From: Gammaproteobacteria bacterium
GTDB lineage: Bacteria > Pseudomonadota > Gammaproteobacteria > Xanthomonadales > SZUA-5
Direction: 5' to 3'
DNA length: 64,000 nt
Assembly: GCA_030430155.1 (NCBI GenBank)
Contig: JAUIFV010000006.1
Coordinates: forward strand, 1 to 64,000
Positions 11,576 to 17,593 of this stretch are shown here, one piece after another. A program made the position numbers and the translations under genes. Under the pieces are notes generated by a model, which saw only the letters and a list, made by a program, of their open reading frames with translations, was not told where the DNA came from and did not search any database. Numbering within the stretch: the first letter of the stretch is position 1; every line of letters begins with the position of its first letter.

Positions 11576-11684
11576 CCACCACCAGAGCCGACGTGAGCAC
11601 GGCGCAAAGCCCAGCCTTGACCTGCATCATTCGCCGTTTATGCGCAGTTCGCTAATATCGGGGGCAGTACAGAGGAGATCGAGT

Positions 11685-11999
11685 ATGTCCGCCAAGCCCA
11701 CCAACCGCCGCCGTTTTCTGGTCCAGTCCGCCGTCGCGCTGAGCAGCGTGCCGCTGGTCGCCGAGCTGCTGCGCCAGAATGCCCACGCCGCGCTGCCGAT
11801 GCTGCCCCTGGACAACGCCCAGGCCAAAGCCCTGCAGTATGTAGAGGACGCCAAGGAAACCACCAGTCCGGCCTTCAAGGAAGGCAGCAACTGCGCCAAC
11901 TGTCAGCTGTTCGTCGCCGACACCGGCGCCTGCAACATCTTCCCCGGCTTCGCCGTCACCCCCGAAGGCTGGTGTGCCGCCTGGGCCTTGAAGCAATAA
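11685..11999 (+). CDS. High-potential iron-sulfur protein (HiPIP), Tat-exported
   Basis: Twin-Arg leader NRRRFL; Cys pattern NCANCQLF...GACNIFPG...GWCAAW. Confidence 0.92.
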   Translation: MSAKPTNRRRFLVQSAVALSSVPLVAELLRQNAHAALPMLPLDNAQAKALQYVEDAKETTSPAFKEGSNCANCQLFVADTGACNIFPGFAVTPEGWCAAWALKQ

Positions 12000-12230: not shown

Positions 12231-13142
12231 ATGACTATAGACAGCTATACGACGACGTTGCGCGGCAAGCGCGTCGTTGATTTCAAAATGGGCGACAAGG
12301 CCGGCGATACCGACGTCGTATATCGGCTCTGTCAGGAGTACGACTGCGAAGAGACCCAATCTGAGCTTCTCGATCATTTTCTGTCCCAGATCGATCCAGC
12401 GAAGCTTGAGGCGTTGGTCATCGGACCCTGGAGCGAAGCCTACGATGAGGGTCCGCAGGGCTATTTGGATTCGCTAGTAGAGCGGCAACCCCAACTGACC
12501 GGCTTAAAAGCGTTGTTTGTGGGCGACATGACCTTCGAGGACTGTGAGATCTCCTGGATCAATCAATGCCCATACAACGATCTGCTGGTCGCCTTTCCCG
12601 GGTTGGAGAGTTTGCGCATCAGAGGGACCATCGATCTGGTCCTCGAGCCTTTCGAACACTCGGAATTGCGCAGTCTGGCAGTGGAAAGCGGCGGAATGCC
12701 GCTGAGCATCCTCAATGCGATCGGCGCCTCGCGGCTTCCCGCACTCACCCACCTGGAACTCTGGCTGGGCGACGACAACTACGGCTACGACGCCACACTG
12801 CAGGACATCCAAAGGGTCATCGAGGCCACGCAGCCGCAGCGCCTGCGCTACCTGGGTCTGCGCAACAGCCAGGGCACGGACCAACTGGCAAGCTGGCTGG
12901 CCACCCAACCCTGGCTGGCCGGCCTGGAGACGCTGGATCTGTCTCTGGGCACGTTGGGCGACATCGGGGCCGAGGCGCTTTGCGCGAGTCCTCACATTAA
13001 TGGCTTGTCACGCCTGGACCTGAGCCACCATTACGTCAGCGATCAATGGCAGAGCAAGCTGAGGCAGCTTCCGCTGACGGTGGTGCTGGATGAGCCGATG
13101 GACGAGGACGATGGCGAGCGCTATGTCGCTGTCTCCGAATGA
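12231..13142 (+). CDS. STM4015 family protein (leucine-rich-repeat-like)
   Basis: LRIRG..., LTHLELWLGDDNYGYDATL, LRYLGLRNS, LETLDLSLGTLGDIGAEAL, LDLSHHYVSD, RYVAVSE C-terminus; gene order matches STM4011-4015 cassette. Confidence 0.85.
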   Translation: MTIDSYTTTLRGKRVVDFKMGDKAGDTDVVYRLCQEYDCEETQSELLDHFLSQIDPAKLEALVIGPWSEAYDEGPQGYLDSLVERQPQLTGLKALFVGDMTFEDCEISWINQCPYNDLLVAFPGLESLRIRGTIDLVLEPFEHSELRSLAVESGGMPLSILNAIGASRLPALTHLELWLGDDNYGYDATLQDIQRVIEATQPQRLRYLGLRNSQGTDQLASWLATQPWLAGLETLDLSLGTLGDIGAEALCASPHINGLSRLDLSHHYVSDQWQSKLRQLPLTVVLDEPMDEDDGERYVAVSE

Positions 13143-14279
13143 GTGGTGAATGATCACACGTGGATTCTGGTAGGACCACGCGACAGCCGCCGCATTGAGC
13201 TGATGCAGCGCGCGCTGATCGCTCAGGGGCACGGCCCTGCGCCGGTCGTCGATTACATCGATCTGCTGCAGGATCCAGATCGTCTCGCCGAGCAGGTTGC
13301 ACTGCATCCGCATGCGACCATCAAGCTGGAGTCGCCTGGGGAAGCAGCCGACCTGCATCATTGCTTGGTCGTCAGAGGCTGGGAGCTTACTGGCCAGCGC
13401 GGACCCCGACCGCAGCGGGCGCAACACGGCGAACTGCGTGATCAGCATCTGTGGTTTGCCGGATTTCGCGATTTGCTCGAAAGGCTCCCCTCGTCCCTTC
13501 GCTATCTCAATTCGCCCGAATCGCTGCTGCAGTTGATCGACAAGAGCGAGTGCCAACGGCGATTGCTGGACCACGGGGTCGCCGCCCCAGATTTCTATGG
13601 ACCGGTCACCTGCCACGAGCAGTTGCGCCTGAAGCTGCGCGAGGTGGGCTGCAGAGCGGCATTCGTGAAGGCCCGCTACGGATCTTCCGCGGCCGGCGTG
13701 CTCGCCTACCGGCAGGGCCCGATGGGCGAGGAGATAGTCACTACGTCCAGCGAGCTATGCCGGAATCGCGGCGAACTGCGCCTGTACAACAACCTCCGCT
13801 TGCGCCGCTACCGCGATTCTGACGATATCGCTGCGTTGGTCGACGCCATTGCCGGGCAGGGTGCCTACGTGGAGCGCTGGATCGCCAAACCCAGGGCTGG
13901 TCCACCGCATATGGGTAGCTTCGACATTCGCGTCGTAGCGCTAGACAGCAATCCGCGACACAGGCTGGCTCGGGTCGGCAAAGGTCCGATGACCAACCTG
14001 CACCTGGGCAACAAGCGAGCTGACGTGACTGCGGTCCTGGATCGCAGCGAGATTCGTGTGCTTGAACGCAGCGTGGCGAGCGTCGGCGCCGTGTTTCCGC
14101 GCTGCCGCGCGCTGGGCATCGACATCATCGTCCGCGGCTCGCGCTACTGGGTCGTTGAAGTCAATGGCTTTGGCGACCTGCTGCTGGGGCAGCGCTGGCT
14201 AGGCTTGGGCACGTACGAAGATCAAGCGCAATGGCTGGAACGCAACCCGCAGCGAGACTCTGCACCATGTCTGCACTGA
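13143..14279 (+). CDS. STM4014 family protein (ATP-grasp/RimK-like)
   Basis: GTG start next to the previous stop; FVKARYGSSAAGVLAY, YVERWIAKPR...FDIRVVAL, GIDIIVRGSRYWVVEVNGFGDLLL ATP-grasp motifs. Confidence 0.82.
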   Translation: MVNDHTWILVGPRDSRRIELMQRALIAQGHGPAPVVDYIDLLQDPDRLAEQVALHPHATIKLESPGEAADLHHCLVVRGWELTGQRGPRPQRAQHGELRDQHLWFAGFRDLLERLPSSLRYLNSPESLLQLIDKSECQRRLLDHGVAAPDFYGPVTCHEQLRLKLREVGCRAAFVKARYGSSAAGVLAYRQGPMGEEIVTTSSELCRNRGELRLYNNLRLRRYRDSDDIAALVDAIAGQGAYVERWIAKPRAGPPHMGSFDIRVVALDSNPRHRLARVGKGPMTNLHLGNKRADVTAVLDRSEIRVLERSVASVGAVFPRCRALGIDIIVRGSRYWVVEVNGFGDLLLGQRWLGLGTYEDQAQWLERNPQRDSAPCLH

Positions 14280-15091
14280 GCGATCCCAATATGAATGAGG
14301 TGGTGGGTCAGGACGATCTGGTGTTGATTACGCTCGATACACTGCGCTATGACGCTGCCCAGCGCTGCTTTGAAGAGGGCCGATTGCCCGTGCTGAGCCG
14401 TTTTCTGCCCGCCGAGGGTTGGGAAAAGCGTCACACGCCCGCTAGCTTCACCTACGCGGCGCACGCCGCCTTCTTTGCCGGTTTCCTGCCCACTCCGGCC
14501 GCCCCGGGTCCGCACTCGCGGCTATTCGCGCTGGCCTTCGAAGGCAGCCAATCAACCGCTCAACAGACCTTTGTTTTTCAGGGCAGTGACAACATCGTGC
14601 AAGGTCTGGCGCAGACCGGCTACCGCACCATCTGTATTGGCGGCGTCGGATTCTTCAACAAGCGCAATCCTCTTGGCTCGACATTGCCTGGACTGTTCGA
14701 TGAAAGCTACTGGAGTCCGCGCTATGGCGTGGCTGAACCGCGATCCACAGAGAATCAGGTGTCGTTTGCCTGCAGTCGCTTGAGCGAGGCGGATCTGAAT
14801 AAACAGCGCTGCTTCTTATTCATCAACGTTGCGGCTTTGCATCAACCAAATCGCTGCTATCTTCCGTCCAGTAGTGGCGATGATTTCGAGTCCCACTGCG
14901 CTGCATTGAGCTACGTCGATGGCGCGTTGAAGCCGCTGTTTGACTGCCTGAGAAAGCGCAACCGCAGCTTCGTTATCGTTTGCTCCGATCACGGCACCGC
15001 CTATGGTGAAGACGGCTACTACGGTCATCGTCTCGCACATGAGGTGGTCATGACCGTCCCCTACACCCATTTCCGCCTGAACCATGACTGA
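14267..15091 (+). CDS. STM4013/SEN3800 family hydrolase (alkaline-phosphatase/sulfatase fold)
   Basis: LVLITLDTLRYDAA, HTPASFTYAAHAAFFAGFLP, IVCSDHGTAYGEDGYYGHRLAHEVVMTVP. Confidence 0.85.
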   Translation: MSALSDPNMNEVVGQDDLVLITLDTLRYDAAQRCFEEGRLPVLSRFLPAEGWEKRHTPASFTYAAHAAFFAGFLPTPAAPGPHSRLFALAFEGSQSTAQQTFVFQGSDNIVQGLAQTGYRTICIGGVGFFNKRNPLGSTLPGLFDESYWSPRYGVAEPRSTENQVSFACSRLSEADLNKQRCFLFINVAALHQPNRCYLPSSSGDDFESHCAALSYVDGALKPLFDCLRKRNRSFVIVCSDHGTAYGEDGYYGHRLAHEVVMTVPYTHFRLNHD

Positions 15092-16442
15092 TCGCTCGCT
15101 CGGTGCGATGCTGCAGCTGCAGCCCTATCAAGCCTACTCCTACGCCTACCCGCACAAGTCCAGCTACCGAGCGCTAAAACCGTCCTTGGACCTGGAGGCG
15201 CTCTGGTCCGACGAAGACAAGCGCGCGCTGTTCCTGTACTTGCATATCCCCTTCTGCAGCTATCGCTGCGGCTTCTGCAATCTGTTTGCCTTGGCCAGAC
15301 CTGCCGCTGAGACGGTTGAACGCTATCTACATCAGATCGAGCAGCAGCTGCGGGTGACTGCAGCCGCGCTGGGGCCACATCAGTTCGCCCGCTTGGCGAT
15401 CGGCGGTGGTACGCCCAGCTACCTGCAGGAGGAGCAGCTGGCCAGACTATTCGCGGCGGTGGATCGCTACGCATCGATCGAGTTGGGCCGGGTCGGCGGT
15501 GGGATCGAGGTTTCGCCGGAGACACTGAGTGTTGAGAAGTTGCGGATTTGCCGCGACGCGGGGCTGGAGCGGGTCAGCATGGGTGTGCAGAGTTTCAACG
15601 ACACTGAGGTGCGGGCGCTGATCCGGCCGCAACAGCGCAGTGTGGTGGAGAGATCCATCGGATTGATCCGTGAACAGGGCTTCCCGATTCTCAATCTGGA
15701 CCTGATCTACGGAATCGAAGGCCAGAGTCGGCACAGCTTCCTGGCTTCGATAGAAAGTGCGCTCAGCTTCGCTCCGGAGGAGCTCTACCTCTACCCTCTT
15801 TACGTCCGTCCGCAGACCGGTCTGCAGAGGAGCCGCAGCGGTCGGCGTGTGCGCCTATTCGAGATCTTGCCGGAGCCAGTCGAAGACCGACTGTCGCTGT
15901 ACCAGGCCGGTCGCGAGTTGCTGATCTCGCGCGGTTATGAACAGGTGTCGATGCGCATGTTCACCGCGCCCGGCAGGTCCGGCCCCGCGACTCCCGACTA
16001 TCGCTGTCAGGATGACGGCATGGTTGGTGTCGGCTGCGGCGCGCGTTCGTACACTCGCCGGTTGCACTATTCCAGCGAGTACGGTGTCAGTCGCTCGTCG
16101 GTGGCCGATATCCTTGGCGACTACCTGCGCCGACCCAGCGAGTCCTTCGCCAGTGTGGATCATGGGTTCGTGCTTGATCTGGACGAAAGGCGGCGGCGCT
16201 ACCTGATCCAGTCGCTGTTGATTCGGCCCGGATTGAGTCACGCCGAGTACCGCGCGCGCTTCCACGACAGCTGCTATGCGCACTACCCGCAACTGCTGGA
16301 GCTGTTGGATTTCGAATTGGCTACCGATAGCGATGGCGTCATCTCGCTCTCGCCTCAAGGGCTGGCCAGAGCAGACACCATCGGGCCGTGGCTGGCTTCG
16401 TCGAAGGTGAACGAGTTGATGCAGGACTATGAATACGCCTAG
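15084..16442 (+). CDS. STM4012 family radical SAM protein (HemN-like)
   Basis: YLHIPFCSYRCGFCNLF radical SAM cluster, LAIGGGTPSYL, SMGVQSFND. Confidence 0.88.
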   Translation: MTDRSLGAMLQLQPYQAYSYAYPHKSSYRALKPSLDLEALWSDEDKRALFLYLHIPFCSYRCGFCNLFALARPAAETVERYLHQIEQQLRVTAAALGPHQFARLAIGGGTPSYLQEEQLARLFAAVDRYASIELGRVGGGIEVSPETLSVEKLRICRDAGLERVSMGVQSFNDTEVRALIRPQQRSVVERSIGLIREQGFPILNLDLIYGIEGQSRHSFLASIESALSFAPEELYLYPLYVRPQTGLQRSRSGRRVRLFEILPEPVEDRLSLYQAGRELLISRGYEQVSMRMFTAPGRSGPATPDYRCQDDGMVGVGCGARSYTRRLHYSSEYGVSRSSVADILGDYLRRPSESFASVDHGFVLDLDERRRRYLIQSLLIRPGLSHAEYRARFHDSCYAHYPQLLELLDFELATDSDGVISLSPQGLARADTIGPWLASSKVNELMQDYEYA

Positions 16443-17325
16443 CCACCTGACAGTGCTCTATCGCGGCAAGCTGAGTAGTTGCAACTACGCCTGCGACTAC
16501 TGCCCCTTCGCCAAGACCTACGACTCGCGCGCGGCGCTGGATGAGGACGCCGCGGACCTGCTGCGCTTTGTCGACTGGGTCGGCGAGCAGCCCCATGCGG
16601 TGTCGGTATTGTTCACGCCCTGGGGAGAGGGGCTGGTCCGAAAGCATTACCGCGAAGCCATGGTTCGCCTGAGTCGACTGGAGCATCTACGTCGCGTCGC
16701 GATCCAGACCAATCTATGTGTGGGTCTGCGCTGGTTGGACTTGGCTGACCACCGCAAACTGGCGCTATGGTGCACCTTTCATCCGTCTCAAGTGTCCCGC
16801 TCGGCATTTGTTCGGCGCTGTATGCAGCTCAGTCGGCGTGGGATTCGCTACAGCGTCGGGATGGTTGCGCTGCAGGCGCACATGGATGAGATCGACATGC
16901 TCCGCGCTGAAGTGCCTGTCGAAGTGCCGATGTGGATCAACGCCTATGACCAGCGGACGGCCGATTACTACAGCGAACAACAGGTCGAGCGATTGCAGGT
17001 TCTCGATCCACATTTTCGCTACAACCTTGATCCGGGCGACAGCAAGGGCGCTCCTTGTCGCACTGGGGAGGACGTAATCACTGTAGACGGCGAAGGCAAC
17101 GTGACCCGCTGCCACTTCGTCGCCGAACCATTGGGCAATCTTTACGACCAGAGCTATTTGGCCAAGCTGCAGCCGCGCGCGTGTCCGAACCGCTGCTGTG
17201 ACTGCTTCATCGGTTACGTCCATCGCAAGGATCTGCCCTTTCAGCGCGACTACGCGGAAGGCTTGCTGGAGCGCATCCGGTTGCCGCGGGTGAGCCGCGA
17301 AATGGAGAGATTCTCGACTTGGTAG
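16429..17325 (+). CDS. STM4011 family radical SAM protein with SPASM-like Cys-rich C-terminus
   Basis: CNYACDYCPF radical SAM motif; C-terminal CRTGEDVITVDGEGNVTRCHF...ACPNRCCDCFIGY. Confidence 0.88.
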   Translation: MNTPSHLTVLYRGKLSSCNYACDYCPFAKTYDSRAALDEDAADLLRFVDWVGEQPHAVSVLFTPWGEGLVRKHYREAMVRLSRLEHLRRVAIQTNLCVGLRWLDLADHRKLALWCTFHPSQVSRSAFVRRCMQLSRRGIRYSVGMVALQAHMDEIDMLRAEVPVEVPMWINAYDQRTADYYSEQQVERLQVLDPHFRYNLDPGDSKGAPCRTGEDVITVDGEGNVTRCHFVAEPLGNLYDQSYLAKLQPRACPNRCCDCFIGYVHRKDLPFQRDYAEGLLERIRLPRVSREMERFSTW

Positions 17326-17383: not shown

Positions 17384-17593
17384 ATGGGTGCGACCAAGGC
17401 GATCGGACTGGTGTTGATGGTGCTCGGCGGGGTGCTGCTGTATTTCGGCTACCAGTCCACCGAGTCCTTCCGCGAGCAGCTGGTGGAGGGGCTGACCGGG
17501 CGCTATAGCGACGAAACGATGCGCTATCTGATCGGCGGCGCGGCTGCTGCTGCGGTGGGTCTGGTGCTGCTGATCATGGGCAAGGGTCGCTGA
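17384..17593 (+). CDS. DUF3185-like small membrane protein
   Basis: 69 aa, two TM helices: IGLVLMVLGGVLLYFGYQSTESF...GLVLLIMG. Confidence 0.75.
   Translation: MGATKAIGLVLMVLGGVLLYFGYQSTESFREQLVEGLTGRYSDETMRYLIGGAAAAAVGLVLLIMGKGR

Follow-up and report, generated by a model that had tools for sequence, protein, structure and literature searches.

The STM4011–STM4015 gene cassette as a possible system for modifying the C-terminal tail of a leucine-rich-repeat protein, with a predicted Twitch-type auxiliary cluster in STM4011

The radical SAM gene STM4011 is the last gene of a five-gene cassette in the window (the whole 64,000-nucleotide stretch of DNA analyzed), which runs on one strand in the order STM4015, STM4014, STM4013, STM4012, STM4011 (Table 1). 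The gene set, a near-invariant tail at the C-terminus of STM4015, the ligase class of STM4014 and a Twitch site in STM4011 are all seen in the sequence. Since the order of the cassette is conserved, STM4015 and STM4011 co-occur, the tail is kept also in unlinked copies, the ligase is LysX-like and STM4011 has a Twitch site, the cassette was read as a protein-tail modification system, in which the C-terminus of STM4015 would be modified by STM4014, STM4012, STM4011 and STM4013. We give this reading an even chance of being right. The tail itself looks like the work site of the cassette enzymes.

Table 1. Position of the features discussed (window coordinates unless a locus is named).
Feature	Position	Strand	Evidence
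STM4015-family leucine-rich-repeat protein, proposed substrate or carrier	12231..13142	+	NF038076 314.6 bits; co-occurs with STM4011
Acidic variable linker DEPMDEDDGE, before the tail	13089..13118	+	Mean net charge -7 in the 20 pre-tail residues, 101 ORFs
Near-invariant C-terminal tail RYVAVSE of STM4015, terminal Glu	13119..13139	+	100/101 ORFs (descriptive) vs 0/8410 others
STM4014-family ATP-grasp ligase, LysX/RimK-like, GTG start	13143..14279	+	NF038074 304.1 bits; fold and profile matches
STM4013-family hydrolase, sulfatase/alkaline-phosphatase superfamily, Thr nucleophile	14231..15091	+	NF038075 398.8 bits; Pfam Sulfatase 1.3e-8
STM4012-family radical SAM enzyme, HemN-like	15084..16442	+	NF006067 554.9 bits
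STM4011-family radical SAM enzyme with C-terminal Twitch domain, 298 aa	16429..17325	+	NF038073; AlphaFold pLDDT 87.3, pTM 0.86
CX3CX2C motif (C18, C22, C25), predicted SAM-binding [4Fe-4S] cluster site	16480..16503	+	Invariant in 38/38
Twitch cysteines C210-X17-C228 ... C252-X4-C257-X-C259 (C256 variable)	17056..17205	+	38/38 invariant; SkfB spacing
DUF6745 gene and small neighbour	L102:7900-9221, L103:1322-2647, L104:7939-9248, L106:2785-4407, L108:13011-14308		

All five proteins of the window scored above the curated cutoffs of their own NCBIfam families (NF038076, NF038074, NF038075, NF006067 and NF038073) and are members of that same gene set. The names STM4011 to STM4015 carry no function, and three of the families are entered as 'hypoth_equivalog'. 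No function for the five was found in the open-licence literature, outside which most subscription papers lie, and the parts of the sources available mention them only in passing (a table row in PMC3844500, and PMC2784778). Although named by locus tag, these families are widespread, occurring in records of Salmonella, Xanthomonas, Streptomyces, Deinococcus, Bacteroides and Paenibacillus, and the annotated records of Salmonella and Deinococcus have the gene set and order of the window. The family names and the cassette in annotated records were already known; to these the present analysis adds the tail, the class of the ligase and the assignment of the Twitch site. If the C-terminus of STM4015 changes mass with the cassette, what is now an orphan system would be defined as a pathway for protein modification that uses radical chemistry.

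The distribution of the cassette was analyzed in the 80 best-scoring loci of a scan of species genomes, mostly from Xanthomonadales, Oxalobacteraceae and Actinomycetota. The order STM4015-4014-4013-4012-4011 on one strand was found in 75 of them, 22 of which carry two or three STM4015 genes. Four of the other five end at a contig edge and one (L086) has no local STM4014. Its genome keeps STM4014 elsewhere (431.7 bits), and this relocated gene (L163:6446-7878, G767:C14) lies beside a short ORF with the STM4015-like end RPFVVVGE, possibly a decayed STM4015. Two loci of the window's class (L002 and L004) showed a differing gene order or a WGR-like STM4015 downstream, the domain being named by eye. 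The cassette is patchy, since only 4/369 genomes of the window's class and 1/398 of its phylum exceeded the STM4011 cutoff, the window's own genome, with its single STM4011 copy, being counted. STM4011 and STM4015 were found together: in a sample of 198 Actinomycetota genomes both occurred in the same five, one of them the centre of the draw, and the 13 plasmid records with STM4011 were recovered when STM4015 was searched alone, together with one further plasmid, from Calothrix.

STM4015 is built of a varied leucine-rich-repeat body, an acidic linker of variable length and the tail R-[YFW]-[VTIS]-x-V-[SGA]-E. The pattern [YFW][VTIS][ASVTE][VIA][SGA]E was written after the tails had been read, so that its presence at the C-terminus of 100 of the 101 STM4015 ORFs of the best-scoring loci is descriptive; the control is given by the other ORFs of at least 60 residues in the same loci, where it was found in 0/8410. 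The final residue is Glu in all 101 ORFs. Among 43 representatives, the entropy of the last seven positions was 0.32, 0.67, 1.37, 1.14, 0.43, 1.47 and 0.00 bits; the thirteen residues before the tail gave 2.00–3.35 bits, and the body averaged 1.66. RYVAVSE is encoded by 18 different 21-mers, and the stops TGA, TAG and TAA all occur after the tail, which argues that selection on it acts on the protein. That the tail serves the following gene as a signal in the DNA was rejected on account of the same variation in synonymous codons and stops, and because unlinked copies keep the tail; the degenerate DNA form of the tail had one match in the 5.06 Mb genome, at STM4015, and its backwards control also had one. 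The unlinked copies are the far copy of S. cadmiisoli, the G930 copy about 100 kb away and that of the Calothrix plasmid, a lone STM4015 (L105:2014-3288) with the tail DRYCSVAE. The latter is the only tail with a Cys, this residue being absent from the last seven positions of the 101 ORFs, and no Cys column is invariant in STM4015. In distant phyla the ends differ (AMYTE in Salmonella, PMITE in Bacteroides and PSLTE in Paenibacillus), and what is kept is the Glu, preceded by a small residue. An N-terminal WGR-like domain was observed in the STM4015 proteins of Bacteroides (L100:4513-5586) and of locus L004 (875-2227), and tblastn with the Bacteroides protein also finds E. coli WGR/DUF4132 proteins.

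The gene next to STM4015 encodes STM4014, for which the LysX/RimK idea was set down before the profile and fold searches were made. STM4014 is weak in Pfam, and its profile matched best LysX (3.3e-5) and then RimK (1.9e-4) among PDB sequences. With the AlphaFold model (pLDDT 93.3, pTM 0.91), Foldseek gave ArgX:LysW as the top match (8.2e-12), with PsnB and RimK:RpsF near the top, and VIA gave LysX (Z 21.8, rmsd 3.0, 266 aligned), ArgX (21.7) and RimK (21.5), with DcsG (20.9) and Ddl (20.5, 1.3 below LysX) close behind and rows within 1 Z counted as tied. Alignment by hhalign, with single sequences on one side, yielded a probability of 73% with the RimK of the same genome and 3.5% with its Ddl. 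The signatures D-x-R ... NLH-x-G and E-x-N are common to STM4014 and this RimK. Residues K134, K176, E244, D261, R263, R277, N285, H287, D327, E339 and N341, which we take to be those that bind ATP and Mg, are invariant in 34/34 sequences. By profile and fold, STM4014 is assigned as an ATP-grasp ligase of the LysX/RimK type, with predicted ligation at a protein C-terminal Glu.

The auxiliary site of STM4011 was also analyzed. The gene is an intact open frame, and the family name that it had received in the earlier note was right, since residues 8–283 matched NF038073 ('STM4011 family radical SAM protein') with 374.8 bits over a cutoff of 200. Pfam PF04055 by itself scored 29.0 bits, slightly below its cutoff of 29.5; the invariant CX3CX2C and the matches of the model to many radical SAM structures place the protein in the radical SAM superfamily. 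The motif CNYACDYC, noticed before near the N-terminus, is the canonical CX3CX2C at C18, C22 and C25. The C-terminal Cys-rich segment was also present as quoted, comprising CRTGEDVITVDGEGNVTRC (C210-X17-C228) and CPNRCCDC (C252, C256, C257, C259), and the conservation check proposed for it came out in its favour: C210, C228, C252, C257 and C259, like the three cysteines of the N-terminal motif, are invariant in the 38 aligned STM4011 homologues, which puts the C-terminal pattern beyond chance. Among representatives with less than 75% identity the same five C-terminal cysteines were kept in 26/26 and C256 was variable. The pattern C-X17-C-gap-C-X4-C-X-C was found in 90 of 93 sequences, Salmonella, Bacteroides and Paenibacillus among them, the three exceptions being Massilia sequences with C-X5-C-X-C instead of C-X4-C-X-C.

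A SPASM domain was taken as the seven-Cys motif CX9-15GX4C-gap-CX2CX5CX3C-gap-C, with two clusters, and a Twitch domain of the SkfB type as CX9-15GX4C followed by a downstream Cys pair, with one auxiliary cluster. In the STM4011 homologues C210-X12-G223-X4-C228 and C257-X-C259 are invariant, as in a Twitch domain. A full SPASM domain was rejected, since its second half is absent (in 84 of 90 sequences the 45 residues that follow the CXC are free of Cys), and STM4011 was therefore classed as Twitch; Pfam SPASM scored 16.0 bits, below its cutoff of 21.5. Hence, of the 'SPASM-like auxiliary cluster region' described earlier, the auxiliary Fe-S site with its five invariant cysteines stands, but it corresponds to the Twitch half only, with one cluster and not two. 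The presence of this site in the C-terminal domain is very likely, because the five cysteines are invariant and spaced as in SkfB, and because SPASM/Twitch enzymes are among the matches of the AlphaFold model, and one auxiliary cluster is expected besides the SAM cluster. SkfB, a Twitch sactisynthase of Bacillus subtilis, shares the spacing C-X17-C ... C-X4-C-X-C with STM4011, and was the sole PDB chain matched by the STM4011 family profile, weakly (E 0.28) and with an alignment that covers the Twitch cysteines; phmmer of a single STM4011 or STM4014 sequence against the PDB gave nothing useful. The available part of a study of SkfB gives C351, C385 and C387 as its Twitch ligands, together with a further C333 and a CX4CXC, describes the auxiliary cluster as [2Fe-2S] and notes that CXC may be indicative of such a cluster (PMC6231123). 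Unlike SkfB, STM4011 has no N-terminal RRE-type domain, and no thioether is expected on an STM4015 tail without Cys. Two distant radical SAM relatives outside the cassette (L005:1369-2331 and L097:1396-2442) have the same Twitch Cys spacing; their neighbours, read by eye, are sulfotransferase-like (L005) and secretion-type genes.

Of the remaining two enzymes, STM4012 matched HemN (1olt, 2.1e-29) and the radical SAM methyltransferase NocN (9p2u, 2.7e-25). STM4013, whose true start is uncertain (14231, perhaps 14264 or 14288), has Thr at the nucleophile position, assigned by eye from the motif, in each of the 81 sequences that are not gapped at that column (84 in all, 3 of them gapped). A formylglycine sulfatase needs Cys or Ser at this position, and so STM4013, named in the earlier note among the possible substrates, was rejected both as such an enzyme and as a substrate of the anSME type. 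In Salmonella the end of STM4011 overlaps with a gene for a Cof-type HAD hydrolase (L099:7834-8568), and in Bacteroides a HAD-like region, read by eye, is fused to STM4011 (L100:6965-8530). In a Bacteroides plasmid copy, a deletion fuses the start of STM4013 to the end of STM4012.

In the tail modification that we propose, STM4015 would present its C-terminus, an acidic linker followed by RYVAVSE-COOH, and STM4014 would activate a carboxylate of the C-terminal Glu and attach an amine-bearing group. The next modification, of the tail itself or of the group joined to it, would be made by STM4012 and STM4011, the auxiliary cluster of STM4011 most likely accepting, by analogy, the electron released in a two-electron oxidation. 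STM4013, plus the HAD phosphatase in Salmonella and Bacteroides, would remove or transfer a phosphate-type group. We infer each of these steps, as well as the sequence in which they follow one another, the nature of the attached group and the fate of the product, kept on the protein or not. Several results speak against tail modification. ATP-grasp folds are alike, DcsG and Ddl come close to LysX in Z, and the hhalign probability with RimK is no higher than the value given above. The tail differs in distant phyla, down to the Glu and the small residue before it, and the Calothrix plasmid carries a tailed STM4015 with no STM4014 on the same plasmid and no cassette gene recognized in the 18 kb read. 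The tail could also be a docking motif only.

It is possible, though we consider it rather doubtful, that STM4015 is a LysW-like carrier. The LysX-like ligase would load an amine onto its invariant C-terminal Glu, where the radical SAM pair and the phosphohydrolase would construct a new group, and the product would be either a cofactor bound to the protein or a small molecule set free from it. If true, such a system would combine a carrier of a new kind with radical chemistry, and it would be present in at least five bacterial phyla. According to the sections available, LysX attaches an amino group to LysW through the gamma-carboxyl of its C-terminal Glu, within the motif EDWGE, and the E54A change in haloarchaeal ArgW leads to auxotrophy (PMC10433800), and recognition of LysW-type carriers is electrostatic, via negative carrier residues (PMC9303977). 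The acidic linker of STM4015 would allow recognition of this kind, and, as in the LysW/LysX (ArgX) systems, a LysX-like ligase adjoins a protein that ends in Glu after an acidic stretch. However, STM4015 is a leucine-rich-repeat protein and not a small zinc protein, its tail is RYVAVSE-like and not EDWGE, and radical SAM enzymes replace those of the lysine and arginine pathways. With neither EDWGE nor an invariant Cys column, STM4015 was rejected as a member of the LysW-type carriers, and may work alike. STM4014 shares its signatures with RimK also, but the partner protein differs from ribosomal protein S6 (RpsF). A likeness in route was found with PEARL/pearlin, where, in the part of the source available, an amino acid is added to the carrier C-terminus and then modified, once by a radical SAM enzyme (PMC9303977); unlike PEARL, the cassette ligase is ATP-grasp and not tRNA-dependent, and there is no protease. 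The cassette has no peptidase, in contrast to carrier pathways with product release, and this also speaks against tail modification.

The main alternative to tail modification, which we place on the unlikely side, is a small-molecule pathway, with STM4011 acting on a free sugar, nucleoside or cofactor precursor, like BtrN or MoaA, and STM4015 serving as a scaffold or sensor whose tail docks the enzymes. The earlier note had taken the SPASM/Twitch pattern as a sign of a polypeptide substrate. MoaA and BtrN are Twitch enzymes with small-molecule substrates. The comparison with SPASM enzymes by structure prediction, as that note had suggested, did give matches to SPASM/Twitch enzymes: SkfB was the top Foldseek match of the STM4011 model (1e-7), and anSME, viperin, SuiB, EpeE, MoaA, BtrN and PqqE also matched. 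In VIA, the best match was BlsE (Z 16.4, rmsd 3.7, 261 aligned), followed by SkfB (14.9), MoaA (14.1), SuiB (14.0), DesII (13.8) and BtrN (11.2). Since BlsE comes first and MoaA, DesII and BtrN match as well, the step from Twitch to peptide is weak, and, with peptide and small-molecule enzymes mixed in the match lists, the fold leaves the type of substrate undecided. The first strand of the model is formed by residues 6–12, with no N-terminal peptide-binding domain, and the two phosphatase-type genes (STM4013 and, in Salmonella and Bacteroides, the HAD gene) also agree with a small-molecule substrate. Against it, SkfB and SuiB score close to MoaA and DesII, and an invariant terminal Glu next to a LysX/RimK-type ligase is better explained by covalent chemistry at that Glu. 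STM4015, one of the substrates proposed before, is favoured by its near-invariant tail, though the substrate may instead be an unlinked peptide.

RiPP-type chemistry within the tail seems improbable. STM4011 would here crosslink, epimerize or oxidize residues (for example the aromatic one or the valines), and STM4014 would make an amide or add glutamates as RimK does. The SkfB-type Twitch spacing, the presence of SkfB, SuiB, EpeE and PqqE in the Foldseek list, the graspetide ligase PsnB among the matches of STM4014 and the conservation of aromatic, V and E positions in the tail are in agreement with it. On the other side, the tail aromatic varies between Y, F and W, the tail is without Cys except in the Calothrix copy, and no short precursor peptide was identified, STM4015 being the only tail-bearing ORF of at least 60 residues among the best-scoring loci. 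Sactionine formation on the tail, and with it STM4011 as a sactisynthase with STM4015 as substrate, was rejected because none of the 101 ORFs has, within its last seven residues, a Cys that could form a thioether. An anSME-like activation, converting a Cys or Ser of STM4013 to formylglycine, would fit the Pfam Sulfatase match of STM4013 and the anSME structures among the matches of STM4011, but it is contradicted by the Thr nucleophile, and also by the missing second SPASM half, to the point of being practically out of the question.

Finally, the genes around the cassette were analyzed. A HiPIP gene with a twin-arginine-like start (11640-11999) lies directly upstream on the same strand. This gene and a DUF3185 gene (17384-17593) were rejected as cassette members, being absent from the other loci scanned, which reach that far only partly and from which the own-genome copies (30 kb stretch, L001) were left out. 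PADLOC gave two weak matches only, to STM4012 and to the Bacteroides WGR region. A DUF6745 gene, possibly a second partner, adjoins the cassette in Deinococcus, Methylobacterium and Streptomyces, and its small neighbour contains, in those read, TGHSHR or TGHAHA.
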